NCBI RefSeq assembly: GCF_038502225.1
Contig: NC_091298.1
Location: 33,134,248-33,198,247 of the forward strand
Length of the DNA stretch: 64,000 bases
Direction: 5' to 3'
DNA from: Cherax quadricarinatus
Taxonomy: Eukaryota > Arthropoda > Malacostraca > Decapoda > Parastacidae
Shown: piece by piece, positions 7,661-62,283 of the stretch
How the letters are laid out: each line of letters begins with the position of its first letter
How positions within the stretch are numbered: position 1 is the first letter of the stretch
The notes under the pieces: model-generated
Seen by the model: the letters and a program-made list of their open reading frames with translations, nothing else
Told to the model about the DNA's origin: nothing
Databases searched by the model: none
Made by a program: the position numbers and the translations under genes

Positions 7661-8073
7661 TTAGATCAAATAGAAATGACCCAAAATGGATGAATAATAG
7701 GCTGAAATATCTATTAGGACATAAGATGGGAATTTATAGGCGTATCAAAAGAGGTGAGAGTCATCTTATGAATCAGTATATTGACACTAAGAGGGACGTT
7801 AAAAAGGGGATAAGAAAAGCTAAACGGGACTATGAAATTAAAGTTGCTAGGGATTCAAAAACTAACCCAAAAAGTTTTTTCCAGGTCTATAGAACGAAAG
7901 TCAGAGATAAGATAGGTCCCCTTAAAAAAACTATGGGCATCTTACTGACAAAAAGAATGAAATGTGCTCGATTTTTAAATAATTATTTTCTCTCGGTTTT
8001 TGCACAGGAAGACACTAACAATATTCAAGTAGTTAATTTTTATAGTGGGCCTGAAGAAGATAAATTATTGTAG
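7624..8073 (+). pseudogene. CR1 ORF2 linker, cut by insertion (copy 1)
   Basis: The frame contains RSNRNDPKWMNNRLKYLLG, KKGIRKAKRDYEIKVARDSK and FLNNYFLSVFAQEDTNNIQ. These match the linker of the antisense copy at 24500-24850. The frame runs into the inserted hammerhead element at 8069 and stops at 8071-8073. Coding sequence resumes after the second copy of the target duplication at 8385. Confidence 0.75.
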
Positions 8074-8352
8074 ATGAATGGTTCACAGAACCGACACGTT
8101 GATTAATTAGACACATGTGCAACTCTTGGGTATCTTTATTAAGGAAACGTTTCGCCACACAGTGGCTTCATCAGTCCATACACAGGAGAAACTTGATGAA
8201 CAGGAGGAGAATGAGGTAATCAATCCCTCAACCTTGAGTCGATGTGATCAGTCCATCAATCTTGAATAGAATACGGCATATGAGCGGAGAAGCATATACC
8301 ATAGGCAGGAGAGGTGCAGCAGTTGTAGGTGGTGTCACATTCCAATAATTAT
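8069..8352 (-). mobile_element. Hammerhead-bearing non-autonomous element inserted in CR1
   Basis: A 284-bp insertion is flanked by identical 32-bp direct repeats (8037-8068 and 8353-8384, beginning TTTTTATAGTGGGCC). This is the target-site duplication: the CR1 reading is restored when it is removed. Read on the minus strand the element ends with the hammerhead motif, GTTGCACATGTGTCTAAT and the terminal segment GGTTC..GAACCATTCATCTA. It is the same family as 50060-50451 and 60004-61089 and is truncated at its other end. Such short elements have no coding capacity and probably move with Penelope-type machinery. Confidence 0.75.
8130..8181 (-). ncRNA. Hammerhead ribozyme-like motif, subfamily 1
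   Basis: On the minus strand the order is GUAU-GGA-CUGAUGA-GCCAC loop GUGGC-GAAACGUU-UCC-...-AUAC. The CUGAUGA and GAAA cores are intact, stem II is 5 bp, and stem I pairs GGA with UCC and GUAU with AUAC. The very short stem III is self-complementary (AACGUU), suiting a dimeric or tandem fold. The predicted cleavage is after GUU. Confidence 0.75.
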
Positions 8353-11150: not shown

Positions 11151-11174
11151 AAACTCACTATGCACTCTAGCAAA

Positions 11175-14113: not shown

Positions 14114-14164
14114 ACAAGACGTACAGCAGCAAATTTGGGGACGGTAAAACAACAGAAGCATAAT

Positions 14165-17394: not shown

Positions 17395-17562
17395 TAGACA
17401 TGTTGATGAGTAACACACCTGTGCAACAGTTATGTATCGTTATTGTTGAAACGTTTCGTCTTCGAGGTAGGCTTCTTCAGTCAAAAACAGAGGAGAATAG
17501 ATTTGAGAAAGCAGGAAGAGTGGCGAGGAAAAAATTATGTAATCAGTCCATCAACCTTGTGG
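17395..17562 (-). mobile_element. Hammerhead-element fragment with CUGAAGA core
   Basis: Read on the minus strand the fragment has TTGATGGACTGATTACATAA, a hammerhead-like motif at 17434-17484 and CTGTTGCACAGGTGTGTTAC. The core is CUGAAGA...GAAAC, and stem I pairs UUGA with UCAA. Stem II is imperfect (two substitutions). It is the same general family as the other elements, but a CUGAAGA subfamily. Confidence 0.6.
17434..17484 (-). ncRNA. Hammerhead ribozyme-like motif, CUGAAGA type
   Basis: On the minus strand UUGA-CUGAAGA-(stem II GCCUACC..)-GAAACGUU-UCAA. The core bases are intact and stem I has 4 bp, but stem II is weakened, so it is probably inactive now. Confidence 0.5.
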
Positions 17563-21055: not shown

Positions 21056-21242
21056 TATAAACACTTAATGTGATGTGCAAGAAAGATATACCATACCGAC
21101 AAGATGAAAGTTAAGACACATGTGCAACATCTGGTTATCTTTATTGTAGATGTTTCGCCATATTGATAAAGCCACTGGATGGCGATACGTCTACAATAAA
21201 GATAACCAGATGATGAACTTGTGTCTTAACTTTCAACTTAAT

Positions 21243-21295
21243 GTGATCCTTTATTGACAACGTTTCGCCCACGCAGTGGGCTTTATCAAGTCACA
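21243..21295 (-). ncRNA. Hammerhead ribozyme-like motif, UUGAUAA type
   Basis: On the minus strand UGUGA-C-UUGAUAA-GCCCAC loop GUGGGC-GAAACGUU-GUC-...-UCACA. Stem I (GAC/GUC plus UGUGA/UCACA) and the 6-bp stem II are perfect, but the core CUGANGA is UUGAUAA, so two conserved core bases are changed. Structure is preserved; activity is doubtful. Confidence 0.5.
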
Positions 21296-21389
21296 GACAG
21301 ATCTACCTGGGTGAAAGGTACTTGAGTGATATATAATTGGTTTTGAAAACCGACAAGTTGAAGAATTGAGACACTTATGCAACGTGTGG

Positions 21390-21442
21390 GAATCTTTATT
21401 GAAGAAACGTTTCGTCACACTGTGGCTTCATCAGTCCAATAC
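21390..21442 (-). ncRNA. Hammerhead ribozyme-like motif, subfamily 1
   Basis: CUGAUGA and GAAAC cores are intact on the minus strand. Stem II is GCCAC/GUGAC-like with one mismatch, stem I is GGA/UCU with a wobble, and the distal GUAU pairing is lost. Confidence 0.6.
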
Positions 21443-21652
21443 AAAGCCGGAAAGTATTAGGAGAGGAGGAGTTTAAGGTAATCAGTCCCTCAGCCTGGAA
21501 TCGATGTGTTCAGTCCATCACTCTTGTAGGAAGTACAGCATAGGGCCAGAGAGGTGGCTTATATACTGCAGTCAGGTGAGTCGAAGCAGGAGGCGGGATC
21601 ACAGTGGGACCATCCACTAGTGTAAGTAGGTCTTCTTACACTTTCCTGCTTT

Positions 21653-21705
21653 GTATTGGACTGATGAAGCCACTGTGTGGCGAAACGTTTCATCAGTAAA
21701 GATTA
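21653..21705 (+). ncRNA. Hammerhead ribozyme-like motif, subfamily 1
   Basis: GUAU-U-GGA-CUGAUGA-GCCAC..GUGGC-GAAACGUU-UCA. Core and stem II are intact; stem I keeps two of three inner pairs. Confidence 0.6.
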
Positions 21706-21992
21706 CCATATGTTGAAGCAAGATTCCAAAGGACATCTACATGACCTTCTTCACGGCTACTACAACTGCTACTACATCTTACCCATCCCTCTTGGTATGA
21801 CCTACTTCCACTGGGGAATCCTGCCTATCAGTGACTATGGCCTCGTCTGCTATACGTCCCAGTCCACTTAGCGTTAGTATATAAGCGCCAGTCTCCTTGC
21901 CTCTGCTCTTCACACCAACTCCAAGGCTGAAGGACTAATTACCTCATCTTTTGTATATAGTTCTACTGTCTTCAAATTATGTCCTAGAATCT

Positions 21993-22038
21993 GTATTGAT
22001 AAAGCCACTGGATGGCGAAAAGTCTACAATAAAGATAC
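21993..22038 (+). ncRNA. Degenerate hammerhead motif, subfamily 2
   Basis: GUAU-UGAUAA-AGCCACUGGAUGGC-GAAAAGUC-UACA-AUAAAG-AUAC. A short deletion removed the stem I bases before the core, and GAAAC is GAAAA. It is probably inactive. Confidence 0.45.
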
Positions 22039-22234
22039 TAAGATGTTGCATGTGTGCCTCAGTTTTCATCTTGTCGGTGTTGTATACCATTCTTGTACCA
22101 CAATGATGTTTATGTTGTAGCAGTGGTAAGATGGAATTTTAGATTAATGGAACTCGAAGAGGTCGTGTATATATCCTAGAGGTGAAATTTCATTTAAAAC
22201 TCTCTTACATCAGAAGTAAAACGGCAACAAGAGG

Positions 22235-22886: not shown

Positions 22887-24512
22887 TCACACCCACCCAC
22901 ACCCACTCATGTATTTATCCAACCTATTTTTAAAGCTGCACAACGTTCTGGCCTCTATAACTGTATTTGGGAGTTTGTTCCACTCATCCACAACTCTATT
23001 ACCAAACCAGTACTTTCCTATATCCTTCCTGAATCTGAATTTTTCCAACTTAAAACCATTGCTGCGAGTCCTGTCTAGGCTAGATATTTTCAGCACACTA
23101 TTTACATCCCCTTTATTTATTCCTGTCTTCCATTTATACACCTCAATCATATCCCCCCTAATTCTACGTCTTTCTAGAGAGTGAAGATTCAGGGCCCTTA
23201 GTCTATCCTCATAGGGAAGGTTTCTGATACATGGGATCAACTTTGTCATCCTCCTTTGTACATTTTCCAGAGCATTTATATCCCTTCTGTAATATGGTGA
23301 CCAAAACTGTCCAGCATAATCTAAATGAGGCCTAACCAAGGATGTATAGAGTTGAAGAACAACCTGAGGACTCCTATTATTTATGCTTCTTGATATAAAG
23401 CCAAGGATTCTATTAGCTTTATTGCGAACACTTATGCACTGTTGTCTTGGTTTCAGATTACTGCTAACCAGAACTCCTAAATCTTTTTCGCAATCCGTAA
23501 TATTAAGATCTACATTATTTAGTTTATATGTGGCATGGTTATTGTCCTGTTCAACATTTAGAACTTTGCATTTGTCTATATTAAACTGCATCTGCCACCT
23601 CTCCGACCACTGCATCAGTCTACTCAAATCTTCCTGGAGTGCTCTAATGTCCTCGTCAGAATGAATTCGACGGCCTATTTTGGTGTCATCGGCAAACTTG
23701 CTGATGTCGCTCTTTATGCCCTCATCTATGTCGTTTATGTATATTGTGAACAGCAGGGGGCCCAACACTGACCCCTGTGGAACACCGCTCGTGACGCTTC
23801 CCCACTCTGATTTCTCCCCATTTATGCAAACTCTCTGCTGCCTATTTGTCAACCATGCCTCTATCCAGGAAAAAATTTCTCCTCCTATTCCATGTGCCTT
23901 AATTTTCCTCAATAGTCTCTGATGTGGGACCCTGTCAAAAGCCTTACTGAAGTTCATGTACACGATATCATATTCATTACCATGAGCTACCTCCTCAAAT
24001 ACCTTAGTGAAAAAAGTTAACAAATTCGTAAGGCAGGAACGCCCCTTTGTAAAACCATGCTGAGATTCGTTGATTAATTTATGCTTTTCAAGGTGGCTAC
24101 GAACTGCCTCGGCAATTATTGATTCCATAAATTTTCCCGCTATGGAGGTTAGGCTTATTGGTCTATAGTTTGAAGCTAAGGACCTGTCACCTGCTTTGAA
24201 AATAGGTATCACATTTGCCATTTTCCACTTATCTGGCACCATGCCAGTTTGTAGTGATATGTTGAAAAGATTAGCCAAAGGTTTGCTAAGCTCCTCTTTA
24301 CATTCCTTTAGAACCCTTGCATACAGTTCATCAGAGCCTGGGGATTTGTTAGGTTTTAATTTATCTATTTGCCTAAGGACCATGTCACTTGTGACCCTAA
24401 TCGTGCACAGTTTATTATCGTCCTGTTCCACATAATTTATCATTTCTGGAATATCGCTGGTATCCTCCTGTGTAAAAACTGAGAGGAAGTATGTGTTAAA
24501 ACTTCTACACAT
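22887..24512 (-). CDS. CR1 reverse transcriptase, long open frame (copy 2)
   Basis: This 541-codon open frame is the longest in the window outside satellites. Motifs: FLSVFTQEDTSDI, KPNKSPGSDELYARVLKE, YRPISLTSIAGKFMES, GFTKGRSCLTNLL, motif A as VYMNFSKAFDRVPH, motif B GVPQGSVLGPLLF, motif C FADDTKIG, and a C-terminal SVRNKANRILGFISRSINNR, HLDYAGQFWSPYYRR and FGNRVVDEWNKLP. Copy 1 has LDFSKAFD in motif A, so the catalytic Asp is Asn here (GAT-type codon to AAC, near 23950) and this RT should be inactive despite the open frame. The first Met is internal; the true ORF starts in the upstream endonuclease. Confidence 0.85.
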   Translation of the reverse strand: MCRSFNTYFLSVFTQEDTSDIPEMINYVEQDDNKLCTIRVTSDMVLRQIDKLKPNKSPGSDELYARVLKECKEELSKPLANLFNISLQTGMVPDKWKMANVIPIFKAGDRSLASNYRPISLTSIAGKFMESIIAEAVRSHLEKHKLINESQHGFTKGRSCLTNLLTFFTKVFEEVAHGNEYDIVYMNFSKAFDRVPHQRLLRKIKAHGIGGEIFSWIEAWLTNRQQRVCINGEKSEWGSVTSGVPQGSVLGPLLFTIYINDIDEGIKSDISKFADDTKIGRRIHSDEDIRALQEDLSRLMQWSERWQMQFNIDKCKVLNVEQDNNHATYKLNNVDLNITDCEKDLGVLVSSNLKPRQQCISVRNKANRILGFISRSINNRSPQVVLQLYTSLVRPHLDYAGQFWSPYYRRDINALENVQRRMTKLIPCIRNLPYEDRLRALNLHSLERRRIRGDMIEVYKWKTGINKGDVNSVLKISSLDRTRSNGFKLEKFRFRKDIGKYWFGNRVVDEWNKLPNTVIEARTLCSFKNRLDKYMSGCGWV

Positions 24513-25803
24513 TTCCTTATCACTGTCAGTGAGCTGACCCGAGGAACTTTTGAGTGGGCCTATCTTGTCCCTGATCTTACTTCTGTATACCTGAAAGAAT
24601 CCTTTGGGGTTAGTCTTCGAATCTCTTGCAACTTTAACCTCTTAATCTCTTTTTGCTTTTCTAATTCCTTTTTTTATTTCTCTCTTTAACTGAATATATC
24701 GATTTCTTAATTGCCCCTCTCCTCTTTTGATTTGTCTATATATGCCTCTCTTTTGACCAATTAGATATTTTAATCTATTGTTCATCCATTTAGGATCATT
24801 TTTGTTTGATCTGATTTCCCTATTAGGAACATAATTTGATTGAGCAGCTAGAACTATGCCCTGGAAAGCGTCGTATCGGCATCCATCACCACCTACCTGA
24901 CCCTTAGTCAGGTCATTCCAGTTCAGCCCACCTAAGTAATTTTTCAGTCCTATGAAATCAGCCAAGCGGAAGTCAGGGACAGAGACTTGATTGCCATTAT
25001 TAGGGGAATTCCATGATATATTAAAACTGAGTGATTTGTGATCACTTTCCCCAAGCTCATCATTAACCTCAAGATTATTAATTAGTGTTTCCCTACTGGC
25101 AAGAACCAAGTCAAGGAGGTTATTTCCCCTAGTTGGCTCTGTCACAAACTGTTTTAAAAAAACAATCCTGGATCGTATCAAGAAAGTCACCTGACTCTAA
25201 ATTTCCTGTCAAATTGCTCCAGTCAATCTGTCTATAGTTGAAATCTCCTATTAGCACAACATTTTCGTTTGTAGATGCCTTACGAATTTCGTCCCATAGA
25301 AGTTTACTGAACTCCCTACCCTGTAAATTACACAGAAAATTAGTTTTTCTCGGCCCTCGAGAAGCTGTAACCAAACAGATTCAGTGGCTGACGCTTCTAA
25401 TTTTATATCTTGTCTAACACAACAATTTAAATTGTCTCTGACATACATCGCTACTCCACCACCTTTCCTGTTGACCCTGTCAGTGTGGAATAATTTATAG
25501 CCTTGTATGTGACATTCAGAGGGCATCTCTCTATCTTTCAGATTGAGCCAGGTCTCTGTTATAGCAATAATATCTGTTTCCTGCACTTGCAATTAATCTT
25601 AGCTCATCTATATTATTTCTTACACTCCTGCTATTAGTATAGTAAACCTTAAGGGAGCTAGTCCCTTGCTGCCCTCTGCTGTCCCCCTTTGTTTGCTGAC
25701 CTGATCTATTGTTTTTATTTATAACTTCATGCTGAATGCCTTTTATACATTTACTGTTTCGAACCCTAGTGTTGCAACCTGCTTGTTTCCCACACACACC
25801 CAT
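24513..25803 (-). pseudogene. CR1 ORF2 endonuclease and linker (copy 2)
   Basis: Frames 25803-25531, 25592-25251, 25374-25129 and 25190-24642 overlap and together give an APE-type endonuclease: VYYTNSRSVRNNIDELRLIA, IIAITETWLN (Glu), GGGVAMYVRDNLNC, VLIGDFNYRQIDW (Asp/Asn) and LGESDHKSLSF (SDH intact). The linker has RSNKNDPKWMNNRLKYLIG and KKGIRKAKRD. Four frame changes (near 25580, 25330, 25170 and 24640) prevent one continuous ORF. The sequence 24641-24513 joins to the RT frame after a further shift. Confidence 0.78.
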
Positions 25804-28742: not shown

Positions 28743-31700
28743 TATACACAGGTGTTACTGGCAGTCACTGCTATGCACAGGTGTTACTGACAGTCACTGC
28801 CATACACAGGTATTACTGACAGTCACTGCTATACACAGGTGATACTGACAGTCACTGCTATACACAGGTGTTACTGGCAGTCACTGCTATACACAGGTGT
28901 TACTGGCAGTCACTGCTATACACAGGTGTTACTGGCAGTCTCTGCTATAGACAGGTGTTACTGGCAGTCACTGCTATACACAGGTGTTACTGGCAGTCAC
29001 TGCTATACACAGGTGTTACTGACAGTCACTGCTATACACAGGTGTTACTGACAGGCACTGCTACACACAGTGCTTATGACAGTCACTGCTATACTCAGGT
29101 ATTACTGACAGTCACTGCTATACACAGGTGTTACTGACAGTCACTACAATACACAGATGTTACTGACAGTCACTACTATACACAGATGTTACTGACAGTC
29201 ACAGCTATACACAGGTGTTATTGACAGTCACTGCGATACACAGTGTTACTGACAGTCACTGCTATACAAAGGTGTTACTGACAGTCACTGCTATACACAG
29301 GTGTTACTGACAGTCACTGCTATACACAGGTGTTACTGACAGCCGCTGCTATACACAGTGTTACTGACAGTCACAGCTATACACAGTGTTACTGACAGTG
29401 ACTGCTATACACAGGTGTTACTGACGGTCACTGCTAGCACGGGTGTTACTGACAGTCACTGCTATACACAGGAGTTACTGACAGTCACTGCTATACACAG
29501 GTGTTACTGGCAGTCACTGCTATACACAGGCGTTACTGACAGTCACTGGTATACACAGTGTTACTGACAGTCACTGCTATACACAGTGTTACTGACAGTC
29601 ACTGCTATACACAGTGTTACTGACAGCCACTGCTATACACAGTTCACTGACAGTCACTGCTACACACAGTGTTATTGACAGTCACTGCTATACACAGGTG
29701 TTACTGACAGTCACTGCTATGCACAATGTTACTGACAGTCACTGCTATACACAGGTGTTACCGACAGTCACTGCTATTCACAGGTGTTACTGACAGTCAC
29801 TGCTATACACATAAGATACTGAGAGTCACTGCTATACACAGGTGTTACTGAGAGTCACTGCTATACACAGGTGCTACTGACAGTCACTGCTATACACAGG
29901 TGTTACTGACAGTCACTGCAATACACAGGTGTTACTGGCAGTCACTGCTATACACACGCGTTACTGACAGTCGCTGGTATATACAGTGTTACTGGCAGTC
30001 ACTGCTATCCACAGGTGTTACTGCCAGTCACTGCTATACACAGTGTTACAGACCGTCACTGCTATACACAGTGTTACTGACAGTCACTGCTATACACAGT
30101 GTTACTGACAGTCGCTGCTATACACAGTGTTACTGACAGTCACTGCTATACACAGTGTTACTGACAGCCACTGCTATACACAGTGTTACTAACAGTCACT
30201 GCTATACACAGTCTTACTGACAGCCACTGCTATACAAAGTGTTACTGACAGTCACTGCTATACACAGTGTTACTGACAGTCACTGCTATACACAGGTGTT
30301 ACTGACAGTCACTGCTATACACAGGTGTTACTGACAGTCACTGCTACACACAGGTGTTACCGACAGTCACTGCTATACACAATGTTACTGACAGACACTG
30401 CTATTCACAGGTGTTACTGACAGTCACTGCTATACACAGGTGATACTGACAGTCACTGCTATACACAGGTGTTACTGAGTCACTGCTATACACAGGTGCT
30501 ACTGACAGTCACTGCTATACACAGGTGATACTGACAGTCACTGCTATACACAGGTGTTACTGAGTCACTGCTATACACAGGTGCTACTGACAGTCACTGC
30601 TATACACAGGTGTTACTGACGGTCACTGCTATACACAGGTGTTACTGACGGTCACTGCTATACACATGTGTTACTGACAGTCACTGCTATACACAGGTGT
30701 TACTGACGGTCACTGCTATACACAGGTGCTACTGTCAGTCACTGCTATACACAGGTGCTGCTGACAGTCACTGCTATACAGAGGTGTTGCTGACAGTTAC
30801 TGCTATACACAGGTGTTACTGACAGTCACTGCTATACATAGGTGTTACTGACAATCACTGCCATACAGAGGTGTTACTGACAGTCAATGCTATACACAGG
30901 TGTTACTGAGAGTCACTGCTATGCACGGGTGTTACTGACAGTCATTGCTATGCACAGGTGTTACTGACAGTCACTGCTATACACAGGCGTTACTGACAGT
31001 CACTGCTATACAAATTTGTTACTGCCAGTCACTGCTATACACAGTGTTACTGACAGTCACTGCTATACACAGGTATTACTGACAGTCACTGTTATACACA
31101 GGTGTTACTGTCAGTCACTGCTATACACAGGTGTTACTGACAGTCACTGCTATAAAAAGGTGTTACTGACAGTCAGTGATATACACAGGTGTTACGGACA
31201 GTCACTGCACGGGTGTTACTGGCAGTCATTGCTATGCACAGGTGTTACTGACAGTCACTGCTATACACAGGTGTTACTGACAGTCACTGCTATACACATT
31301 TGTTACTGTCAGTCACTGCTATACACAGTGTTACTGACAGTCACTGGTTTACACAGGTATTACTGACAGTCACTGCTATACACAGGTGTTACTGACAATA
31401 ACTACTATACACTGGTGTTACTGACAATAACTACTATACACAGGTGTTACTGACAGTCACTGCTATACACAGGTGTTACTGACAATAACTACTATACACA
31501 GGTGTTACTGACAATAATTAATATACACAGGTGTTACTGACAGTCACTGCTATACATAGGAGTTACTGACAGTCACTGCTATACATAGGTGTTACTGACA
31601 GTCACTGCTATACAGATGTGTTACTGACAGTCGCTGCAATACACAGGTGTTACAGACAGTCACTGGTATACACAGTGTTAATGACAGTCACTGCTATACA

Positions 31701-34700
31701 CAGTGTTACTGACAGTCACTGCTATACACAGTGTTACTGACAGTCACTGCTATACACAGTGCTACTGACAGTCATTGCTATACTCAGCGTTACTGACAGT
31801 CACCGCTATACACAGTGTTAATGACAGTCACTACTATACACAGTGTTACTAACAGTCACTGCTATACACAGTGTTACTGACAGTCACTGCTATACACAGT
31901 GTTACTGACAGTCACTGCTATACTCAGCGTTACTGACAGTCACTGCTATACACAGGCGTTACTGACAGTCACTGCTGTACACAGGTGTTACTGTCAGTCA
32001 CTGCTATACACAGTGTTACTGACAGTCACTGCTATAGAGAGGTTACTGACAGTAACTGTTATACACAATGTTACTGACCGTCCCTGCTATACACAGGTGT
32101 TACAGACGGTCACTGCTATACACAGGTGTTACTGACAGCCACTGCTATACACAGGTGTTACTGACAGTCACTGCAATACACAGGTGCTACTGACAGTCAC
32201 TGCTATACACAATGTTACTGACAGTCACTGCTATACAGAGGTGTTACTGTCACTGCTATACACAGGTCTTACTGACAGTCACTGCTATACACAGGTGCTG
32301 CTGACAGTCACTGCTATACACAGGTGTTGCTAACAGTTACTGCTATACACAGGTGTTACTGACAGTCACTGCTATACATAGGTGTTACTGACGATCACTG
32401 CTGTACACAGGTGTTACTGACAGTCAATGCTATACACAGGTGTTACTGACAGTCACTGTTATGCACGGGTGTTACTGACAGTCACTGCCATGCACAGGTG
32501 TTACTGACAGTCACTGCTATACACAGGTGTTACTGACAGTCACTTCTATGCAGAGGTGTTACTGACAGACACTGCTATACACAGGTGTTACTGACAATAA
32601 CTACTATACGCTGGTGTTACTGACAATAACTACTATACACAGGTGTTGCTGACAGTCACTGCTATACACAGGTGTTACTGACAATAACTACTATAAACAG
32701 GTGTTACTGACAATAACTACTATACACAGGTGTTACTGACAGTCACTGCTATACACAGGTGTTACTGACAGTCACTGTTATGCACAGGTGTTACTGACAG
32801 TCGCTGCTATACAGAGGTGTTACTGACAGTCGCTGCAATACACAGGTGTTACTGACAGTCACTGCTATAAACAGTGTTACTGACAGTCACTGCTATACAC
32901 AGTGTTACTGACAGTCACTGCTATACACAGTGCTACTGACAGTCACTGCTATACTCAGCGTTACTGACAGTCACTGCTACACACAGTGTTACTGACAGTC
33001 ACTGCTATACTCAGCGTTGCTGACAGTCATTGCTATACACAGGCGTTACTGACAGTCACTGCTATACACAGTGTTACTGACAGTCACTGCTATACACAGG
33101 TTACTGACAGTAACTGTTACACACATTGTTACTGACCGTCCCTGCTATATACAGGTGTTACTGACGGTCACTGCTATACACAGGTGTTACTTACAGTTAC
33201 TGCTATACACAGGTGTTACTGGCAGCCACTGCTATACACAGGTGTTACTGACAGCCACTGCTATAGACAGGCGTTACTGGCAGTCACTGCTATACGCAGG
33301 CGTTACTGACAGTCACTGCTATACACAGTGTTACTGACAGTCACTGCTATACAGAATGTTACTGACAGTCACTGCTATACACAGGTGTTACTGACAATCA
33401 CTGCTATACACAGTGTTACTGACAGTCACTGCTACACACAGGTGTTACTGACAGTCACTGCTATACACAGGTGTTACTGACAGTCACTGCTATACAGAGG
33501 TGCTACTGAAAGTCACTGCTATGCACAAATGTTACTGACAGTCACTGCTATACACAAGTTTTACAGTTTCTGCTATGCACAGGTGTTACTGACAGTCACT
33601 GCTTTACACTGGTGTTACTGACAGTCACTGTTATACACAGGTGCGGCAAGTCACTGCTATGCACAAATGTTATTGACAGTTACTGCTATATACAAGTTTT
33701 ACAGACAGTCTCTGCTATGTACAGGTGTTACTGACTGTCACTACTATACACGGTGTTACTGACTGTCACTACTATACACCAGTGTTACTGACATTCACAG
33801 CTATACACAGGTGTTACTGACAGTCACTGCTATACACAGGTGTTACTGACAGTCACTGTTATACACAGGTGTTACTGACAGTCACTGCTATACACTGGCG
33901 TTACTGACAGTCACTTCTATACACAGGTGTTACTGGCAGTGATTACTATACACAGATGTTACTGACAGTCACTGCTATACACAGGTGTTACTGACAGTCA
34001 CTGCTATACACAGGTGTTACTGACAGTCACTGCTGTACACAGATGTTACTGACAGTCACTGCTATATACAGGTGCTACTGACAGTCACTGCTATACAAAG
34101 GTGTTACTGACAGTCACTGCAATACACAGGTGCCACTGACAGTTACTGCTATACGCAGGTGTTACTGTCACTGCTATACACAGGTGTTACTGACAGTCAC
34201 TGCTATACACAATGTTACTGACAGCCACTGCTATGCAGAGGCGTTACTGTCACTGCTATACACAGGTGTTACTGACAGTCACTGCTATACACAGGTGCTA
34301 CTGACAGTCACTGTTATACACATGTATTGCTGACAGTCACTGCTACATACAGGTGTTACTGACAGTCACTGCTATACACAGGTGTTACTGACAGTCACTG
34401 CTATACACAGGTGTTACTGGCAGTCACTGGTATGCACAGTGCTACGGACCGTCACTGCTATTCACAGTGTTACTAACATTCCCAGCTATACACACTGTTA
34501 CTGACAGTCACTGCTATATACAGGTGTTACTGACAGTCACTACTATACACAGTGTTACTGACAGTCACTGCTATACACAGTGTTACTAACATTCCCTGCT
34601 ATACACACTGTTACTGACAGTCACTGCAATACACAGGTGTTACTGACAGTCACTGCTATACACAGTGTTACTGACAGTCACTGCTATGCACACGTGTTAC

Positions 34701-37700
34701 TGACAGCCACTGCCATACACATGTGCTACTGACAGTCACTGCTATACACAAATGTTACTGACAGTCACTGCTATACACAAGTTTTACTGACAGTCTCTGC
34801 TATGCACAGGTGTTACTGACTGTCACTGCTATACACTGGTGTTACTGACAGTCACTACTATACAAGGTGTTACTGACAGTCACTGCTATACACAACTGTT
34901 ACTGACATTCACTGCTAAACACAGGTATTACTGACAGTCACTGCTATACACAGGTGTTACTGACAGTCACTGCTATACACAGGTGTTACTGACAGTCACT
35001 GCTATACACAGGCGTTACTAACAGTCACTGCTATACAAAGGTGTTACTGGCAGTCATTACTATACACAGACGTTACTGACAGTCACTGCTATACAAAGGT
35101 GTTATTGACAGTCACTGCTATTCACAGGTGTTACTGACAGTCACTGCTATACACAGGTGTTACTGATAGTCACTGCTATTCACATGTGTTACTGACAGTC
35201 AGTGCTATACACAGGTGTTACTGACAGTCACTGCTATACATAGGTGTTACTGACAGCCGCTGCTATACAGAGTGTTACTGACAGTCACTGCTATACACAG
35301 GTGTTACTGACAGTCACTGCTATACACAGGTGTTACTGACAGTCACTGCTATACACAGGTTACTGACAGTCACTGATATACACAGTGTTACTGACAGTCA
35401 CTGCTATACACAGGTGTTACTGACGGTCACTGCTTTACACGGGTTTTACTGACAGTCGCTGCTATACACAGGTGTTACTGTCATTCACTGCTATACACAG
35501 GTGTTACTGACAGTCACTGCTATACACAGGTGTTACTGACAGTCACTGCTATACACAGGTGTTACTGACAGTCACTGCTATACACAGGTGTTACTGACAG
35601 TCACTGCAATACACAGGTGCTACTGACAGTTACTGCTATACACAGGTGTTACTGACTGTCACTGCTATACACAGGTGTTACTGACAGTCACTGCTACACA
35701 CAATGTTACTGACAGTCACTGCTATGCAGAGGTGTTACTGTCACTGCTATACACAGGTGTTACTGACAGTCACTGCTATACACAGGTCCTACTGACAGTC
35801 ACTGCTATACACAGGTGTTGCTGACAGTCACTGCTATACACAGGTGTTACTGACAGTCACTGCTATACACAGGTGATATTGACAGTCACTGGTATACAGA
35901 GGTGTTTCTGGCAGTCACTGCTATACACAGGCGTTACTGACAGTCACTGGTATACACAGTGTTACGGACCGTCACTTCTATACACAGGTGTTACTGACGG
36001 TCACTGCTATACACAGGTGTTACTGACAGTCACTGCTATTCACAGGTGTTACTGACAGTCACTGCTATACACAGTGTTACTGACAGTCACTGCTATACAC
36101 AGGTGTTACTGACAGTCACTGCTATTCACAGGTGTTCCTGACAGTCAGTGCTATACACTGGTGTTACTGACAGTCAGTGCTATACACAGGTGTTACTGAC
36201 AGTCACTGCTATACATAGGAGTTACTGACAGCCGCTGCTATACAGAGTGTTACTGACAGTCACTGCCATACACAGGTGTTACTGACAGTCACTGCTATAC
36301 ACACGTTTTACTGACGGTCACTGCTATACACGGGTTTTACAGACAGTCGCTGCTATACACAGGTGTTACTGACAGTCACTGCTATACACAGGTTTTGCTG
36401 ACAGTCACTGCTATACACAGTGTTACTGACAGTCAGTGCTATACACAGTGTTACTGACAGTCAGTGCTATACACAGGTGTTACTGGCAGTCAGTGCTATA
36501 CACAGGTGTTACTGACAGTCACTGCTATACATAGGAGTTACTGACAGCCGCTGCTATACAGAGTGTTACTGACAGTCACTGCTATACACAGGTGTTACTG
36601 ACAGTCACTGCTATACACACGTGTTACTGACGGTCACTGCTATACACGGGTTTTACAGACAGTCTCTGCTATACACAGGTGTTACTGACAGTCACTGCTA
36701 TACACAACTGTTACTGACATTCACTGCTGAACACAGGTGTTACTGACAGTCACTGCTAAACACAGGTGTTACTGACAGTCACTGCTATACACAGGCGTTA
36801 CTAACAGTCGCTGCTATACACAGGTGTTACTGGCAGTCATTACTATACACAGATGTTACTGACAGTCACTGCTATACACAGGTGTTATTGACAGTCACTG
36901 CTATTCACAGGTGTTACTGACTGTCACTGCTATACACAGGTGTTACTGACAGTCACTGCTATTCACAGGTGTTACTGACAGTCAGTGCTATACACAGGTG
37001 TTACTGACAGTCACTGCTATACATAGGTGTTACTGACAGTCACTGCTATACACAGGTGTTACTGACAGTCACTGCTATACACAGGTGTTACTGACAGTCA
37101 CTGCTATACACAGGTTACTGACAGTCCCTGCTATACACAGTGTTACTGACAGTCACTGCTATACACAGGTGTTACTGACGGTCACTGCTTTACACGGGTT
37201 TTACTGACAGTCGCTGCTATACACAGGTGTTACTGTCAATCACTGCTATACACAGGTGTTACTGACAGTCACTGCTATACACAGGTGTTACTGAGAGTCA
37301 CTGCTATACACAGGTGTTACTGACAGTCACCGCTATACACAGGTGTTACTGACAGTCACTGCAATACACAGGTGCTACTGACAGTTACTGTTATACACAG
37401 GTGTTACTGACAGTCACTGATATACACAGGTGTTACTGACAGTCACTGCTATACACAATGTTACTGACAGTCACTGCTATGCAGAGGTGTTACTGTCACT
37501 GCTATACACAAGTGTTTCTGGCAGTCACTTCTATACACAGGTGCTACTGACAGTCACTGCTATACACAAGTGTTGCTGACAGTCACTGCTATACACAGGT
37601 GTTACTGACCGTCACTGCTATACACAGGTGTTACTGACAGTCACTGCTATACACAGGTGTTACTGACAGCCACTGCTATACACAGCTATTCACAGGTGTT

Positions 37701-40700
37701 ACTGACAGTCACTGCTATACACAGGTGTTACTGACAGTCACTGCTATACACAGTGTTACTGACAGTCACTGCTATACATAGGTGTTACTGACAGTCACTG
37801 CTATTCACAGGTGTTACTGACAGTCACTGCTATACACAGGTGTTACTGACAGTCAGTGCTATACACAGGTGTTACTGACAGTCACTGCTATACATAGGTG
37901 TTACTGACTGCCGCTGTTATACAATGTTACTGACAGTCACTGTTATACACAGGTGTTACTGACAGTCACTGCTATACACAGCTGTTACTGACAGTCACTG
38001 TTATACACAGGTTACTGACAGTCACTGCTATACACAGTGTTACTGACAGTCACTGCTATACACACGTGTTACTGACGGTCACTGCTATACACGGGTTTTA
38101 CAGACAGTCGCTGCTATACACAGGTGTTACTGACAGTCACTGCTATACACAGGTGTTACTGACAGTCACTGCTATACACCGGCGTTACTGACAGTCACTG
38201 GTATACACAGTGTTACTGACAGTCACTGCTATACACAGGTGTTACTGACAGTCACTGCTATACACAGTGTTACTGACAGTCACTGCTATACACAGTGTTA
38301 CTGACAGTCACTGCTATACACAGTGTTACTGACAGTCACTGCTATACACAGTGTTACTGACAGCAACTGCTATACTCAGTGTTAATGACAGTCACTGCTA
38401 TACACAGTGTTACTGACAGCCACTGCTATACACAGTGTTACTGACAGTCACTGCTATACACAGTGTTACTGACAGTCACTGCTATACACAGGTGTTACTG
38501 ACAGTCACTGCTATACAAAGGTGTTACTGACATTCACTGCTATACACAATGTTACTGACAGTCACTGCTTTTCACAGGTGTTACTGACAGTCACTGCTAT
38601 ACACAGATGTTACTGACAGTCACTGCTATACACAAGTGTTACTGACAGTCACTGCTATTCACACGTGTTACTGACAGTCAGTGCTATACACAGATGTTAC
38701 TGACAGTCAGTGCTATACACAGGTGTTACTGACAGTCACTGCTATACATAGGTGTTACTGACAGTCACTGCTATACATAGGTGTTACTGACAGCCGCTGC
38801 TATACAGAGTGTTACTGACAGTCACTGCTATACACAGGTGTTACTGACAGTCACTGCTATACACAGGTGTTACTGACAGTCACTGCTATACACAGGTTAC
38901 TGACAGCCACTGCTATACACAGTGTTACTGACAGTCACTGCTATACACATGTGTTACTGACAGTCACTGCTATACATAGGTGCTACTGACAGTCACTGCT
39001 ATACACAGGTGTTACTGACAGTCACTGCTATACACAGTGTTACTGACAGTCACTGCTATACAGAGTGTTACTGACAGTCACTGCTATACACAGGTGTTAC
39101 TGACAGTCACTGCTATACACAATGTTACTGACAGTCACTGCTATTCACAGGTGTTACTGACAGTCACTGCTATACAGAGGTGTTACTGACAGTCACTGCT
39201 ATAGACAGGTGTTACTGACAGTCACTGCTATACGCAGGTGTTACTGACAGTCACTGCTATAGACAGGTGTTACTGACAGTCACTGCTATACGCAGGTGTT
39301 ACTGACAGTCACTGCTATAGACAGGTGTTACTGACAGTCACTGCTATACGCAGGTGCTACTGACAGTCACTGCTATTCACAGGTGTTACTGACAGTCACT
39401 GCTATACACAGGTGTTACTGACAGTCACTGCTATACACAATGTTACTGACAGTCACTGCTATACACAGGTGTTACTGACAGTCACTGCTATAGACTGGTG
39501 TTACTGACAGTCACTGCTATACACAGGTGCTACTGACAGTCACTGCTGTACACAGGTGTTACAAGCAGTCACTGCTATACACAGGCGTTACTGACAGTCA
39601 CTGGTATACACAGTGTTACTGACAGTCACTGCTATACACAGGTGTTACTGACAGTCACTGCTATAGACAGTGTTACTGACCGTCACTGCTATACACAGTG
39701 TTACTGACAGCCACTGCTATACACAGTGTTACTGACAGTCAGTGCTATACACAGTGTTACTGACAGTCACTGCTATACACAGGTGTTACTGACGGTCACT
39801 GCTATACACAGGTGTTACTGACAGTCACTGCTATATACAGGTGTTACTGCCAGCCACTGCTATACACAGCTATTCACAGGTGTTATTGACAGTCACTGCT
39901 ATACACAGGTGTTACTGACAGTCACTGCTATACACAGTGTTACTGACAGTCACTGCTATACATAGGTGTTTCTGACAGTCACTGCTATTCACAGGTGTTA
40001 CTGACAGTCAGTGCTATACACAGGTGTTACTGACAGTCAGTGCTATACACAGGTGTTACTGACAGTCACTGCTATACATAGGTGTTACTGACAGCCGCTG
40101 CTATACAGAGTGTTACTGACAGTCAATGCCATACACAGGTGTTTCTGACAGTCACTGCTATACACAGCTGTTACTGACAATCACTGCTATACACAGGTTA
40201 CTGACAGTCACTGCTATACACAGTGTTACTGACAGTCACTGCCATACACACGTGTTACTGACGGTCACTGCTATACACGGGTTTTACAGACAGTCGCTGC
40301 TATACACAGGTGTTACTGACAGTCACTGCTATACACAGGTGTTACTGACAGTCACTGCTATACACAGGCGTTACTGACAGTCACTGGTATACACAGTGTT
40401 ACTGACAGTCACTGCTATACACAGGTGTTACTGACAGTCACTGCTATACACAGTGTTACTGACAGTCACTTCTATACACAGTGTTACTGACAGTCACTGC
40501 TTTACACAGTGTTACTGACTGTCACTGCTATACACAGTGTTACTGACAGCCACTGCTATACTCAGTGTTACTGACAGTCACTGCTATACACAGTGTTACT
40601 GACAGCCACTGCTATACACAGTGTTACTGACAGTCACTGCTATACACAGTGTTACTGACAGTCACTGCTATACACAGGTGTTACTTACAGTCACTGCTAT

Positions 40701-41817
40701 ACAAAGGTGTTACTGACAGTCACTGCTATACACAATGTTACTGACAGTCACTGCTTTTCATAGGTGTTACTGACAGTCACTGCTATACACAGATGTTACT
40801 GACAGTCACTGCTATACACAGGTGTTACTGACAGTCACTGCTATACACAGTGTTACTGACAGTCACTGCTATACACAAGTGTTACTGACAGTCACTGCTA
40901 TTCACACGTGTTACTGACAGTCAGTGCTATACACAGGTGTTACTGGCAGTCACTGCTATACATAGGTGTTACTGACAGTCACTGCTATACATAGGTGTTA
41001 CTGACAGCCGCTGCTATAGTGTTACTGACAGTCACTGCTATACACAGGTGTTACTGGCAGTCACTGCTATACACAGCCGTTACTGACAGTCACTGGTATA
41101 CACAGTGTTACTGACAGTCACTGCTATACACAGGTGTTACTGACAGTCACTGCTATACACAATGTTACTGACAGTCACTGCTATTCACAGGTGTTACTGA
41201 CAGTCACTGCTATACACAGATGTTACTGACAGTCACTGCTATACACAGGTGTTACTGACAGTCACTGTTATACACAGGTGTTACTGACAGTCGCTGCTAT
41301 ACATAGGTGTTACTGACAGTCACTGCTATACACAGGTGCTACTGACAGTCACTGCTATACACAGGTGTTACTGACAGTCACTGCTATACACAGGTGTTAC
41401 TGACAGTCACTGCAATACACAGGTGCTACTGACAGTGACTGGTATAAACAGGTGTTACTGACAGTCGCTGCTATACACAGGTGTTACTGACAGTCACTGC
41501 TATTCACAGTGTTACTGACATTCACTGCTATACTCAGGTGTTACTGACAGTCGCTGCTATACACAGGTGTTACTGACAGTCACTGCTATTCACAGTGTTA
41601 CTGACAGTCACTGCTATTCACAGTGTTACTGACAGTCACTGCTATTCACAGGTGTTACTGACAGTCGCTGCTATACACAGGTGTTACTGACAGTCACTGC
41701 CATTCACAGTGTTACTGACAGTCACTGCTATTCATAGTGTTACTGACAGTCACTGCTATACACAGGTGTTACTGACAGTCACTGCTATTCACAGTGTTAC
41801 TGACAGTCACTGCTATA
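28743..41817 (+). repeat. 13-kb minisatellite of a 29-bp unit
   Basis: The unit is CACAGGTGTTACTGACAGTC plus ACTGCTATA (29 bp), with a frequent 28-bp form lacking one G (CACAGTGTTACTG). About 450 copies occur. Each unit holds an E-box-like CAGGTG and the 9-bp palindrome TGACAGTCA. Three 29-bp units read as a 29-residue peptide period, explaining repeated LLTVTAIHRCYW frames, which are not genes. Shared rare variants show higher-order duplication. It ends at 41817 within CTGCTATATATCTTC. Confidence 0.97.
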
Positions 41818-45260: not shown

Positions 45261-46099
45261 ATTGTTCTAAGAGGGGATGCATAGCTATTCCTAATTTTTG
45301 TGCATAGACCAGTAGTCATGTCTTGCTAGAGAATTATTTTATTTATGATGAGCACACTGTTAAGCCTAGTAAGAAGGTCTCCCGAATGCTGCAAGTATAA
45401 GCTGCTTACTGTTCCCAACATTCTGCACATTCTGCTGGTTTGTAGTGTGCACTGCTCCTCCCGGAAGTGACCAGGCGTGAAGATATCTTCAGTTTAAGAA
45501 TCTTAGAGAGTTTACAGATATTTACAGGTTTGGCTTCAATAGGGAGGAGGTACAAGAATTTGCTTCCCTTTGTAATACACCTGAAAACCTTCTAAATTTC
45601 TCTGAGGAAAGGAACAGAGTCTCGGTGCAGTGTTGAAGGGGATGGTCTCTTAGGTGTCGCGATAGTTTATGAGATCTATTTTCGCCTGATAGTCTTCATT
45701 TTTAAGACTAAGCACTCCTCCTCCTCCATCTATGTCAGCAGTAATAGGTTAAGCACCCCCAGTAAAATAGTGCCACTTAAAAAGAATCTGACAAATCAGT
45801 CTAAGAATGAAAGCTACATCGGATGATCACGTGAACAATGTGACCTTGAAGAATCTGGAACAATCCACGGAAGGAAATGAAAGACCCAAAGGAACTATTT
45901 ACATAGCATCACTGATAGAAACATCTGTACAAATGATGGAATGGAAAATATTTACAAATTATGGGTTGTATACGCAAATGTGTTTATCAATAGTATTAGT
46001 TATACGAGTGGGCAGCCGATAATAAGCCCTCTTCTGAACACTGTGCCTCAACATTTATTTATGAAAGAACTAAAAATGAAGTGTTAATTATCTGATTAA
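45261..46099. other. No gene recognised
   Basis: AT-rich sequence with a 71-codon frame (45807-46022) lacking any known domain. Confidence 0.35.
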
Positions 46100-46122
46100 T
46101 TATACACATTTGCATCATCTGG

Positions 46123-46175
46123 GTATCTTTATCATGTAGACGTTTCGCCATCCAGTGTCTTTATCAGTACAATAC
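46123..46175 (-). ncRNA. Hammerhead ribozyme-like motif, subfamily 2
   Basis: GUAU-UGUA-CUGAUAA-(GACACUGGAUGGC)-GAAACGUC-UACA-UGAUAAAG-AUAC on the minus strand. The cleavage triplet is canonical GUC, and stem I pairs perfectly (UGUA/UACA, GUAU/AUAC). The core has CUGAUAA, not CUGAUGA, replacing the catalytic G, so cleavage is doubtful. Confidence 0.55.
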
Positions 46176-46313
46176 AAGGACATAATCTGAAGATCAGCAA
46201 TACATATAGTCAGTGAGATACGAGGTAATTAGTCACTGAGCTTAGTAGCATGTAGGCTGATGGAATGATTACCTAGTCTTTCACTGTCTTTACAGTGTTC
46301 AGATAATGTCCAT

Positions 46314-46375
46314 GTATTGTACTGATAAAGCCACTGGATGGTGGAACGTCTACAAAAGAAAGATATCTAGATGTT
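46314..46375 (+). ncRNA. Degenerate hammerhead motif, subfamily 2
   Basis: GUAU-UGUA-CUGAUAA-AGCCACUGGAUGGU-GGAACGUC-UACA. Stem I is intact, but the core GAAA is GGAA and the outer pairing is weakened. Confidence 0.45.
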
Positions 46376-46425
46376 GCACATGTATGTAATTCATCTTTTT
46401 TTTGGTATTATATACCACTGACGCA

Positions 46426-49900: not shown

Positions 49901-50059
49901 TCCTTATCCACCTTGTCAATTCCTCTCAGCATTCTGTATGTCGTTATTATGTCCCCCCTTTCCTGTCTGTCCAGTGTCGTCAGGTTGAGTTCCCTTAATC
50001 TCTCATCATTGGATATACCCCTCAACTTCGGGACTAGTCTTGCAGACTTTTTCACTTTT

Positions 50060-50451
50060 GCACATGTGTCTAATTTATCAACATGTCGGTTCTCTGAACC
50101 ATTCATCTACAAACCTGTTAGACACTGCAACTTCTTGGGATCTTAATACTTAGGAATTCTTCGCTTGCCTAATTCTTGGGCACGACCTACTTCCACATTG
50201 AACAAATGTAACACCACCTATGACTGCTACACCTCTCCTGCCATACGGTTTATAAGCTGCTTCTCCGCTCATATGCCGTATTCTATTCAAGATTGATGGA
50301 CTGAACACATCGACTCAAGGTTGAGGGACTGATTACCTCATTCTCCTCCTGTTCTTCAAGTTTCTCCTAAGTATGGACTGATGAAGCCACTGTGTGGCGA
50401 AACGTTTCCTCAATAAAGATACGCAAGAGTTGCACATGTGTCTAATTTATC
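50060..50451 (+). mobile_element. Complete hammerhead element nested in LINE
   Basis: The element starts with GCACATGTGTCTAATTTATC, continues with the unit start ATGTCGGTTCTCTGAACCAT (50083) and ends with a second GCACATGTGTCTAATTTATC at 50432-50451. It is therefore one unit plus the tail of a preceding unit, i.e. a 20-base terminal direct repeat. The flanking CACTTTT at 50053 and 50452 is a plausible 7-bp target duplication in the LINE. The body is colinear with the 371-bp units at 60318 and 60689. Confidence 0.75.
50371..50422 (+). ncRNA. Hammerhead ribozyme-like motif, subfamily 1
   Basis: GUAU-GGA-CUGAUGA-GCCAC UGU GUGGC-GAAACGUU-UCC-UCAAUAAAG-AUAC. All core bases and all stem I and II pairs are intact. 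Confidence 0.75.
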
Positions 50452-51058
50452 CACTTTTTCTAATTTCTTGACGTGCCTGACCAGGTGTGGGTGCCATACT
50501 AGTGCTGCATACTCCAGTATGGGCCTCACGTACACGGTGTACAGTGTATTTAATGACCTCTTACTCAGGTATCGAAGCGTTATGCTTAAGTTTGCAAGGT
50601 GCCCATTTGCTGCAGCAGTTATTTAGTTGATGTACCTCAGGAGATATGCTCGGTATTATACTCATCCCAAGATCCTATTCCTTGAGTGTGGTTTGTAGTC
50701 TTTGGCCCCCTAGCCTGTATTCCATCTGCTGTCTCCTTTGTCTTTCTCCAATCTTCATGACTTTTCACTTGGTGGGGTTAAACTCCAGGAGCCAATTGCT
50801 GGACAAGGCTTATAGCCTGTCCAGATCCTTTGTAGTACTATCTGATCCTCATCCGTTTGAATTCGTCACATTAACCTCACATTGTTTGCAAACAGGGACA
50901 CCTTTGAAGCTATCCTTCCGTTATGTCATTCATATATACCAGAAACAACAACGGTTCAAGAACTGACCTGCGTGGAATCTCGCTCGTTACAGGCACCCAC
51001 TCTGACGCCTCGTCACGCACCGTCACTTGTCGTTTCCTTCCTGTCAGGTATTCTCTGA

Positions 51059-59602: not shown

Positions 59603-59991
59603 AATATTTGTCATTTTTTCTTCTTGCTTTATGTTTATCCCACATACTGGCAAGACTAGCAATTAAGGCTATGAAATTTCTATAATGCGAGTTGTCTTGT
59701 AACACAAATCTATCACTGAATGAATCCCCAGAAGCGCACAAGTCCCTTACCTATATCTGCAAATACTGTAGAAAGTTCAGAGACTCGGTTCACTTATTGT
59801 CTAGGAGGTAAGAGGAATGACCAATCATGAAAAAGTAAATTATTATGTAAAATTTAATTTTTCATAAAAAAAAGAAAACAAAAGAGTCTAGATATAAAAA
59901 AGTCCCTCTACAACAACCATTGTAAGAGGGAAATTATGCAAAAACACGTTTATTTTAACTTGATTTCAAGGTAAAAGGCACTATTCACTAG
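59603..59991. other. No gene recognised
   Basis: AT-rich flank of the hammerhead-element insertion. A weak inverted pair of CCCTCTACAAC/GTAAGAGGG lies at 59905-59935. Confidence 0.35.
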
Positions 59992-60032
59992 ACGTTATAA
60001 ATTGATAAATTAGACACATGTGCAACTCTTGG

Positions 60033-60084
60033 GTATCTTTATTGAGGAAACGTTTCGCCACACAGTGGCTTCATCAGTCCATAC
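60033..60084 (-). ncRNA. Hammerhead ribozyme-like motif, subfamily 1 (inverted unit)
   Basis: It has the same 52-nt fold as 60605-60656, read on the minus strand. All core bases and pairs are intact. Confidence 0.75.
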
Positions 60085-60604
60085 AAAGGAGAATCTTGAA
60101 GAGCAGGAGGAGAATGAGGTAATCAGTCCCTCAACCTTGAGTCGATGTGGTCAGTCCATCAATCTTGAATAGAATACGGCATACGTGCTGAGAAGGAGCT
60201 TATAAACCGTTGGCAGGAGAGGTGCAGAAGTCATAGGTCGTGTAACATTTGTTCAATGTTGAAGTAGGTCGTGCCCAAGAATTAGGCAAGCGAAGAATTC
60301 CTAAGTATTAAGATCCCATGTCGGTTCTCTGAACCATTCATCTACAAACCAGTCAGACACTGCAACTTCTTGGGATCTTAATACTTAGGAATTCTTCGCT
60401 TGCCTAATTCTTGGGCACGACCTACTTCAACATTGAACAAATGTTACACGACCTATGACTTCTGCACCTCTCCTGCCAACGGTTTATAAGCTCCTTCTCA
60501 GCACGTATGCCGTATTCTATTCAAGATTGATGGACTGACCACATCGACTCAAGGTTGAGGGACTGATTACCTCATTCTCCTCCTGGTCTTCAAGATTCTC
60601 CTTT

Positions 60605-60656
60605 GTATGGACTGATGAAGCCACTGTGTGGCGAAACGTTTCCTCAATAAAGATAC
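60605..60656 (+). ncRNA. Hammerhead ribozyme-like motif, subfamily 1 (unit 1)
   Basis: GUAU (60605-60608), GGA (60609-60611), CUGAUGA (60612-60618), stem II GCCAC (60620-60624), loop UGU, GUGGC (60628-60632), GAAAC (60633-60637), GUU, predicted cleavage after 60640, UCC (60641-60643), AUAC (60653-60656). Stem III is self-complementary (AACGUU), so efficient cleavage would need a dimer or tandem transcript; two tandem units are present here. Confidence 0.8.
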
Positions 60657-60975
60657 CCAAGAGTTGCACATGTGTCTAATTTATCAACATGTCGGTTCTC
60701 TGAACCATTCATCTACAAACCTGTCAGACACTGCAACTTCTTGGGATCTTAATACTTAGGAATTCTTCGCTTGCCTAATTCTTGGGCACGACCTACTTCA
60801 ACATTGAACAAATGTTACACGACCTATGACTTCTGCACCTCTCCTGCCAACGGTTTATAAGCTCCTTCTCAGCACGTATGCCGTATTCTATTCAAGATTG
60901 ATGGACTGACCACATCGACTCAAGGTTGAGGGACTGATTACCTCATTCTCCTCCTGCTCTTCAAGATTCTCCTTT

Positions 60976-61027
60976 GTATGGACTGATGAAGCCACTGTGT
61001 GGCGAAACGTTTCCTCAATAAAGATAC
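60976..61027 (+). ncRNA. Hammerhead ribozyme-like motif, subfamily 1 (unit 2)
   Basis: An exact repeat of the unit 1 motif 371 bases downstream. Two cleavages would release a 371-nt monomer. Confidence 0.8.
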
Positions 61028-61091
61028 CCAAGAGTTGCACATGTGTCTAATTTATCAACATGTCGGTTCTCTGAACCATTCATCTACAAAC

Positions 61092-62283
61092 GTTATAAAT
61101 TAGTAAGAAAAAATTTACATCATTATAGGTTTGCCATAACTAAGGATATGTATGTCTTCTACAATTTTCAAAAAGTATCACGAAATTATGAGTTTTGACA
61201 TGGCAACAGATAACCTTAAGTCAAGAGTGAGAGTGAAGCACAATGCTATACAGAAACTCACGTCAGTGAAAACTGGATTATTAAAATATTAAAGAGGAAA
61301 ATCGTGGTGACAACTTTATTCCGTATAATCGTATCCAAATGAAGCCACATCACTAAGGACTGTTGGAGCAACAAGACATTATACAACATAAAACACAACT
61401 CCTCACTGTCTCAGAGGAGCTGCAAAACAAAGGCTTCATTACAATGGGAACGCTAGAAGAAGAAATATTTTTTTTCCATTTTGCTCCTCAGTTTGTATAC
61501 GAAATCTTTTGTTTCCTTTATACCATATATGTTGATGTACATCTCGTGGAAGGAAGAAGCCAGGAGATCGTTCTGAATGTTAGCTGGAACCCAGTGACCA
61601 TCATGGACGCAGGAATGTAAGTAAATGAGATCGTCGGATATATTTAGCTGAAACCTACGAGGTCTTCAGCTCATCCACGTCATTTCACACTAGTAATGAT
61701 AAGAAGCAATGGGATTGGTTAAAAAATATTCAGATAAACGTCGCCAGTCTCAAAAGTTCTGTCTATTTTTAAAAGACTATACCACAGAATGTATGATAAT
61801 AAAATAATGAAATTAAATAAATAATCGTACCACATATCCATTAAATGAATATGTGGTAGGATTATTTTGTCAACACCTGAAAAATCATTAAGTAGAAACT
61901 AAGAGTGGTCTTTATGAAGAACACAGGAATGAGCAAATACAGGAACACCATGATCTCAGGCTCGAGAATGATCACACAGAGTAGTTACATTGCGAGAGAA
62001 CATCCAAGAGATCATAAAACTGCGAAAAGAAGTCAGGTGAGTTCAGGTGTTTATGGGAATATGGGGAGGGGACAGGGTTACAAATTATTGATGTTTATTA
62101 TATTAATAGCGGAAAATTATTCTCAATTGCTTCGGTGAGGTGAAGTAGGGATCGTCCCAGAAAACTTTGGAGGGAGGAGGTAAAGGAGGTTTTGAGTAAA
62201 AGAGGCTTTGACTTCCAATAGGCTTGTGAGAGAGTGTTAGAGAGGAGTAAGTGGAGGCAAGTGGTTTTAATGACCAGAGGCGC
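61092..62283. other. No gene recognised
   Basis: AT-rich sequence. The 85-codon frame at 61363-61620 has no known domain. A small hairpin (arms TACCACATAT/ATATGTGGTA, 61828-61858) is present. Confidence 0.35.

Follow-up and report, generated by a model that had tools for sequence, protein, structure and literature searches.

A coding-free tandem array of hammerhead units in Cherax quadricarinatus, probably a non-autonomous Penelope-like element inserted by two-sided priming

How does a short DNA unit that encodes no protein come to stand in tandem, next to an inverted copy of itself and inside a duplicated target? The question is raised by a locus in the window, a 64,000-nucleotide stretch of Cherax quadricarinatus contig NC_091298.1 (Table 1). 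A sequence-only reading had described one inverted partial unit, two head-to-tail units of exactly 371 bp with intact hammerhead cores and the start of a third, all coding-free and bounded by a 12-bp target duplication. This layout was recovered, with a third-unit start of 31–33 nt whose last bases are common to the duplication, so that the element ends at about 61089–61091. The duplication bounds the element on both sides, and ACGTTATAAATT has no other occurrence on the + strand of the window. The hammerhead core (CTGATGA...GAAAC) is intact in both direct units, as claimed, and in the inverted arm; reading frames of at least 110 aa are absent from the element, in agreement with the coding-free description. 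The direct units (GC 43%) are exact in length and not in sequence, as they differ at unit positions 35 and 270. Read in reverse complement, the inverted arm (317 nt) matches positions 55–371 of unit 2 perfectly and those of unit 1 with one mismatch. Because no open reading frame (ORF) with reverse transcriptase (RT) and GIY-YIG endonuclease lies inside, the locus is a derivative of a Penelope-like element (PLE) and not an autonomous PLE. It is quite likely a non-autonomous PLE in which one pseudo-LTR is repeated in tandem, the RT-endonuclease gene is absent, and movement occurs via a cycle of two-sided priming. Judged by its sequence, this pseudo-LTR is made up of a putative TATA box, a 5' leader, a minimal type I hammerhead, a candidate RT-start hairpin and an apparent ORF-start remnant.

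Table 1. Features of the element and its borders, in window positions.
Feature	Position	Strand	Remark
Left copy of target duplication, ACGTTATAAATT, 12 bp	59992..60003	.	exact repeat
Inverted (site-0) arm, unit 371 to 55	60002..60318	-	tail absent; outermost bases overlap duplication
Hammerhead core of inverted arm	60049..60079	-	
Direct unit 1, 371 bp	60317..60687	+	
PLE ORF-start remnant, CACTGCAACTTCTTGGGATC vs CACTGCAGTAGAAATGGATC of the autonomous element	60358..60377	+	start codon lost
TATA-like box TTTATAAG; sister family has TATATAAG	60483..60490, also 60854-60861	+	putative promoter function
Hammerhead core of unit 1	60612..60640	+	
Direct unit 2, 371 bp	60688..61058	+	
Putative RT-start hairpin GGTTCTCTGAACC, unit positions 7-19	60694..60706, also 60323-60335	+	between both end sites; presumed role
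Hammerhead core of unit 2	60983..61011	+	
PLE 'tail', formed by positions 1-33 of the incomplete unit 3	61059..61091	+	element stops at tail site
Right copy of target duplication	61090..61101	.	exact repeat

The hammerhead is of the minimal PLE type with a type I layout, and its helix III (GAAACGTTTC) has no room for a loop. By hammerhead numbering, we take cleavage to occur after unit position 324, that is, after 60640 in unit 1 and after 61011 in unit 2. Because helix III lacks the loop, a lone unit should be poorly active and adjacent units should work as a dimer, as would be expected from published work on minimal hammerheads (PMC7761336). No hammerhead was reported by Rfam at gathering scores anywhere in the window, nor up to E = 10 on 59900–61200, and a minimal variant may well slip past the Rfam models. 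The microRNA-like Rfam matches in 59900–61200 span the inverted repeat, fall under the curated cut-offs and were rejected. Single-sequence folding puts an alternative structure at -14.2 kcal/mol ahead of one with native-like helices I and II at -10.9 kcal/mol (z -1.0) and thus gives no proof of hammerhead activity. In 82 of 94 family units the core is the same as in the window, and its first 33 bases recur without change in a 378-bp sister family whose overall identity is 76%. Within the family the core has 0.0062 variants per base vs 0.0099 elsewhere, a difference that is weak as evidence on its own.

The 3.95-Gb genome does hold dispersed copies bordered by duplications, as the sequence-only reading had predicted. 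At least 172 matches to a 401-bp query define a dispersed coding-free family; scores cover 40 of 1141 candidates, which makes the counts lower bounds, and the query crosses the head-to-head junction, which enriches the sample for two-armed copies. From the 41 loci taken, L002 was dropped because it is contained in L041, and L015 and L019 were excluded from pairing as too complex. Head-to-head pairs with their 3' ends outward are found at 33 of the resulting 38 loci. The five not scored as pairs are L029, which resembles an interrupted pair, and L023, L026, L028 and L032, where a clear target duplication is absent. Among 70–80% matches, an edge often falls at unit position 205; this is probably due to alignment across a variable stretch. 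At L053, a candidate ORF behind the hammerhead was rejected, since its frame joins a family fragment, LINE-like RT sequence and PLE endonuclease sequence.

The outer ends of the pairs cluster at unit position 371, termed site 0, and at positions ~30–37, termed the tail site. Both outer ends lie at recognised sites in 22 of the 33 pairs, and all 22 of these clean pairs combine one site 0 with one tail, with site 0 on the left in 15 and on the right in seven; tail/tail ends occur in none of the 33. One further pair, L018 (~90% identical), was scored 0/0 by the script, yet a diverged tail is visible at its left end. The remaining ten have at least one outer end off both sites and are truncated, decayed or extended by chance. 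By exact match, target duplications are 12–15 bp long in 20 of the 22 clean pairs; L039 has 8 bp and L005 has 3 bp, or 13 bp if one mismatch is allowed. Among 462 cross-paired flanks of different copies no match exceeds 8 bp, and thus the 12-bp duplication of the window is not due to chance. Genome-wide, a pattern that joins the tail to a short unrelated word has 449 matches vs 0 for the reversed control, and among the matches listed the tail ends at unit positions 30–33 in 75 of 99 junctions typed. The pairing of the hairpin between the two sites is preserved with altered letters in three families, although the hairpins fold hardly better than shuffled sequences (17, 71 and 20 of 200 shuffles reach the same stability). 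Tandem arrangement and repeat-rich surroundings might suggest an ordinary satellite, produced by local tandem duplication and inversion, or an assembly artefact. Such an origin is scarcely credible, given that the same architecture recurs at many loci, each with its own flanks and duplication, and also in a second, protein-coding family.

The inverted arm could arise in two ways. In fold-back self-priming, which has been proposed for the Penelope of bdelloid rotifers (PMC3846280), the 3' end of a lone cDNA snaps back and copies itself, so that the second arm is a copy of the first and cannot exceed it in length. Some inner junctions do lie close together (e.g., 55/1 and 12/37), as a snap-back would leave them, and private variants are common to both arms at nine loci. 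The latter points to templates of one source, and a homogeneous single source would give the same result. However, in the clean pairs the two arms stop at defined sites that always differ from each other, and the longer arm is the tail arm in 11 of these 22 pairs and the site-0 arm in the other 11. Lengths can differ by several units, as in L009 (2928 vs 409), L016 (319 vs 3312) and L011 (360 vs 2203). Moreover, the arms of L004, L005, L007, L008, L017 and L038 differ at two or more polymorphisms known from other loci, so that the arms at these six loci were probably copied from different templates. The one-tail rule, the even split of arm lengths and the arms from different templates together favor two-sided target-primed reverse transcription, and fold-back appears quite improbable. 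The inner junctions overlap by 1–5 bp in 22 of 33 pairs and by 10 and 18 bp in two, and nine show no overlap or a gap. Identical inner junctions recur in separate insertions (12/37 in L004, L005 and L007; 55/1 in L001, L010 and L041), with the tail on the opposite arm relative to the junction in L007 and L010; this recurrence may reflect a preferred microhomology or an inherited junction.

The window contains other copies and repeats. A one-armed family copy at 8068–8341 (-), 91% identical, ends at the tail site and is flanked by a 32-nt direct repeat, far longer than the usual 13 bp, and a single-orientation copy at 50058–50454 (+), 95% identical, has an intact hammerhead core. Older hammerhead/PLE remnants (71–93% identical to the unit, in both orientations) lie at 21095–22098, 46093–46395 and 17397–17559. 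RVT_1 reverse transcriptase frames at 8407–8919 (+) and 22890–24641 (-) probably belong to LINEs. Simple arrays comprise a satellite of ~456 copies of a 29-bp unit at 28743–41817, a 22-bp unit at 11173–14114 and a 24-bp unit at 14165–16236. Elsewhere in the genome, L045, L054, L024 and L095 represent sister coding-free families that are ~75% identical. Units are spaced 362–378 bp apart in the first three of these, an ATG is kept at the old ORF start in L054 and L095, and the arrays of L045 and L054 adjoin PLE coding sequence.

An autonomous relative is present in the same genome. From the 14,992 first-look candidates of a search for GIY-YIG, 150 were taken on to scoring and every one of these passed the cut-off; the two long frames checked each carry RVT_1 and GIY-YIG. 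In L072, an element of this autonomous family, named PLE-A here, a TATA-like box is followed by a hammerhead-like stretch without a core, site 0, a hairpin and the ORF start. From the hammerhead to the ORF start, the 371-bp unit aligns with L072 over 158 nt (101 of 161 columns identical, score 124); shuffled sequences scored 41 ± 9 with a maximum of 66, and none of 1000 reached 124. PLE-A insertions stop at two homologous sites 31 nt apart, and the spacing is 31–32 nt across both families. A scan of 35 PLE-A loci turned up seven valid head-to-head pairs, all with one tail and one plain end and with duplications of 11–14 bp; an eighth pairing, with a 4-bp match only, was discarded as spurious. 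Ten further pairs, chosen because their GIY-YIG frames face apart and thus a subset of such pairs, again all had one tail and one plain end (duplications 9–16), which brings PLE-A to 17 of 17. This alignment with an RT/GIY-YIG PLE supports descent of the coding-free family from a PLE, as may be read from the sequences, and PLE proteins most likely move it. An exact pattern for an autonomous PLE with the window-type tail and ORF start had two matches, neither followed by a PLE reading frame, and exact patterns, including the matches listed of the 449 tail hits, found no closer autonomous helper. As no autonomous PLE with this tail plus ORF start was found, a helper PLE is unproven.

The comparison of the two families also bears on the role of the ribozyme. 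The CTGATGA core is missing at 52 of 52 PLE-A sites matched by its pattern (12 of the 52 displayed), and core mutants of an anole PLE still inserted in vitro (PMC11167929). Because PLE-A is abundant and has long frames without a core, the ribozyme seems dispensable for PLE insertion as such. Since the coding-free tandem family keeps the core and the autonomous family is without it, the pattern suggests that the ribozyme would serve life as a tandem repeat and not the insertion step.

The sequence-only reading had proposed a circle or concatemer as template. Measured from the expected cut, site 0 is 47 nt and the tail site ~79 nt further downstream, and a linear RNA cut at the hammerhead could give only a stub; thus, the template for full arms must have been an uncut multimer or a circle. 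Most arrays (L016, L022, L009) are homogeneous, which is compatible with multimer and circle alike. In L017, however, one arm combines units with different states at 11 polymorphisms common to other loci, which implies a mixed multimer or a template switch and excludes a single-unit circle there.

The same observations bear on whether the element is a metazoan non-LTR retrozyme, in which cut monomers would be ligated to 371-nt circles that serve as the sole templates for rolling-circle reverse transcription. Such retrozymes are described in PMC7229834 as coding-free hammerhead tandem repeats of 170–400 bp with low GC and flanking duplications, to which the 371-bp unit, 43% GC and 12-bp duplication correspond. 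Circular templates would also fit the right arm of L016, where nine units (the first and last partial) show zero differences, and L022, where variant 51C is present in every covering unit of both arms. Conversely, the loop of helix III is missing; the hammerheads of published retrozymes are, according to PMC7229834, of the canonical type I, which is characterised by a stable helix III and loop 1-2 contacts. The units within one arm of L017 are also not uniform. Furthermore, none of 33 pairs, a small and biased sample, has an inner end at unit positions 318–331, around the expected cut. The ribozyme difference is not absolute, given that amphibian retrozymes are also weak in helix III and active as dimers (PMC7229834). 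Overall, a retrozyme of this kind is unlikely. Of the two identities first offered, minimal Penelope or retrozyme, the former is supported; the latter, in the strict sense, is not supported, as helix III is without a loop and the ends and architecture match those of a PLE.

For the preferred reading, a non-autonomous PLE inserted by two-sided priming, the cycle can be outlined as follows. Tandem copies would be transcribed into multimers, in which adjacent hammerheads could pair as dimers and cut, and an uncut multimer or a circle would, from the positions of cut and ends, be the template. The GIY-YIG/RT protein of an autonomous PLE would cut both target strands ~13 bp apart, in keeping with the duplications. 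Both 3' ends would then act as primers within the RNA, with one reverse transcript begun at site 0 (371) and one at the tail site (~30–33), where the observed ends lie. Joining of the two cDNAs head-to-head, often via the 1–5 bp of microhomology seen at inner junctions, would create the inverted arm. The purified anole PLE, a predicted dimer, cuts and extends both strands and starts reverse transcription at two internal sites that bound the 'tail' (PMC11167929). We lean slightly towards a more general statement, namely that PLE integration is obligately two-sided and asymmetric: a protein dimer would use one hairpin-flanking RT start site per cut strand, every complete insertion would be head-to-head with one tail, and coding-free hammerhead repeats would exploit this reaction, linking PLEs to retrozymes.

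Exactly one arm of every clean pair bears the tail, in 22 of 22 pairs of the coding-free family and 17 of 17 of PLE-A. This rule is new, in that no prior statement of it, or of a coding-free PLE family of this form, was found in the literature surveyed. Among known systems, Terminons also have minimal PLE-type hammerheads (PMC7761336). They are giant and attached to telomeric repeats, and nothing similar was seen here. Plant LTR retrozymes, with a 4-bp duplication and a type III hammerhead, are unlike the present element, which has a 12-bp duplication and a type I layout. In LINE-1 twin priming, two priming events at one target make an inversion, whereas here each priming would start at its own fixed internal RNA site. 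The closest likeness is to Penelope/Poseidon PLEs, such as Anolis Poseidon and Adineta vaga Penelope. PMC11167929 and PMC3846280 describe an inverted pseudo-LTR, flanking duplications and, downstream of the ribozyme, two internal RT start sites that enclose a tail of 30–40 nt. Inverted head-to-head copies with a flanking duplication, and two end sites that bound such a tail downstream of the hammerhead, were likewise found here, and the hammerhead in the pseudo-LTR is shared with Anolis Poseidon (PMC11167929). Unlike in these PLEs, the ORF is absent and the tandem unit is the pseudo-LTR itself. The tail, moreover, is called 'optional' in these two papers. For the origin of PLE inverted copies and of the 'optional' tail, the one-tail rule makes a testable statement, two start sites with one per strand. 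Compared with the metazoan retrozymes of PMC7229834, the family differs in its minimal hammerhead, its apparent direct descent from a PLE and its inverted head-to-head arms. The authors of that work name PLEs a strong candidate helper for retrozymes, and the Cherax family lends evidence at the sequence level to the published conjecture that coding-free hammerhead repeats are moved by the machinery of PLEs.
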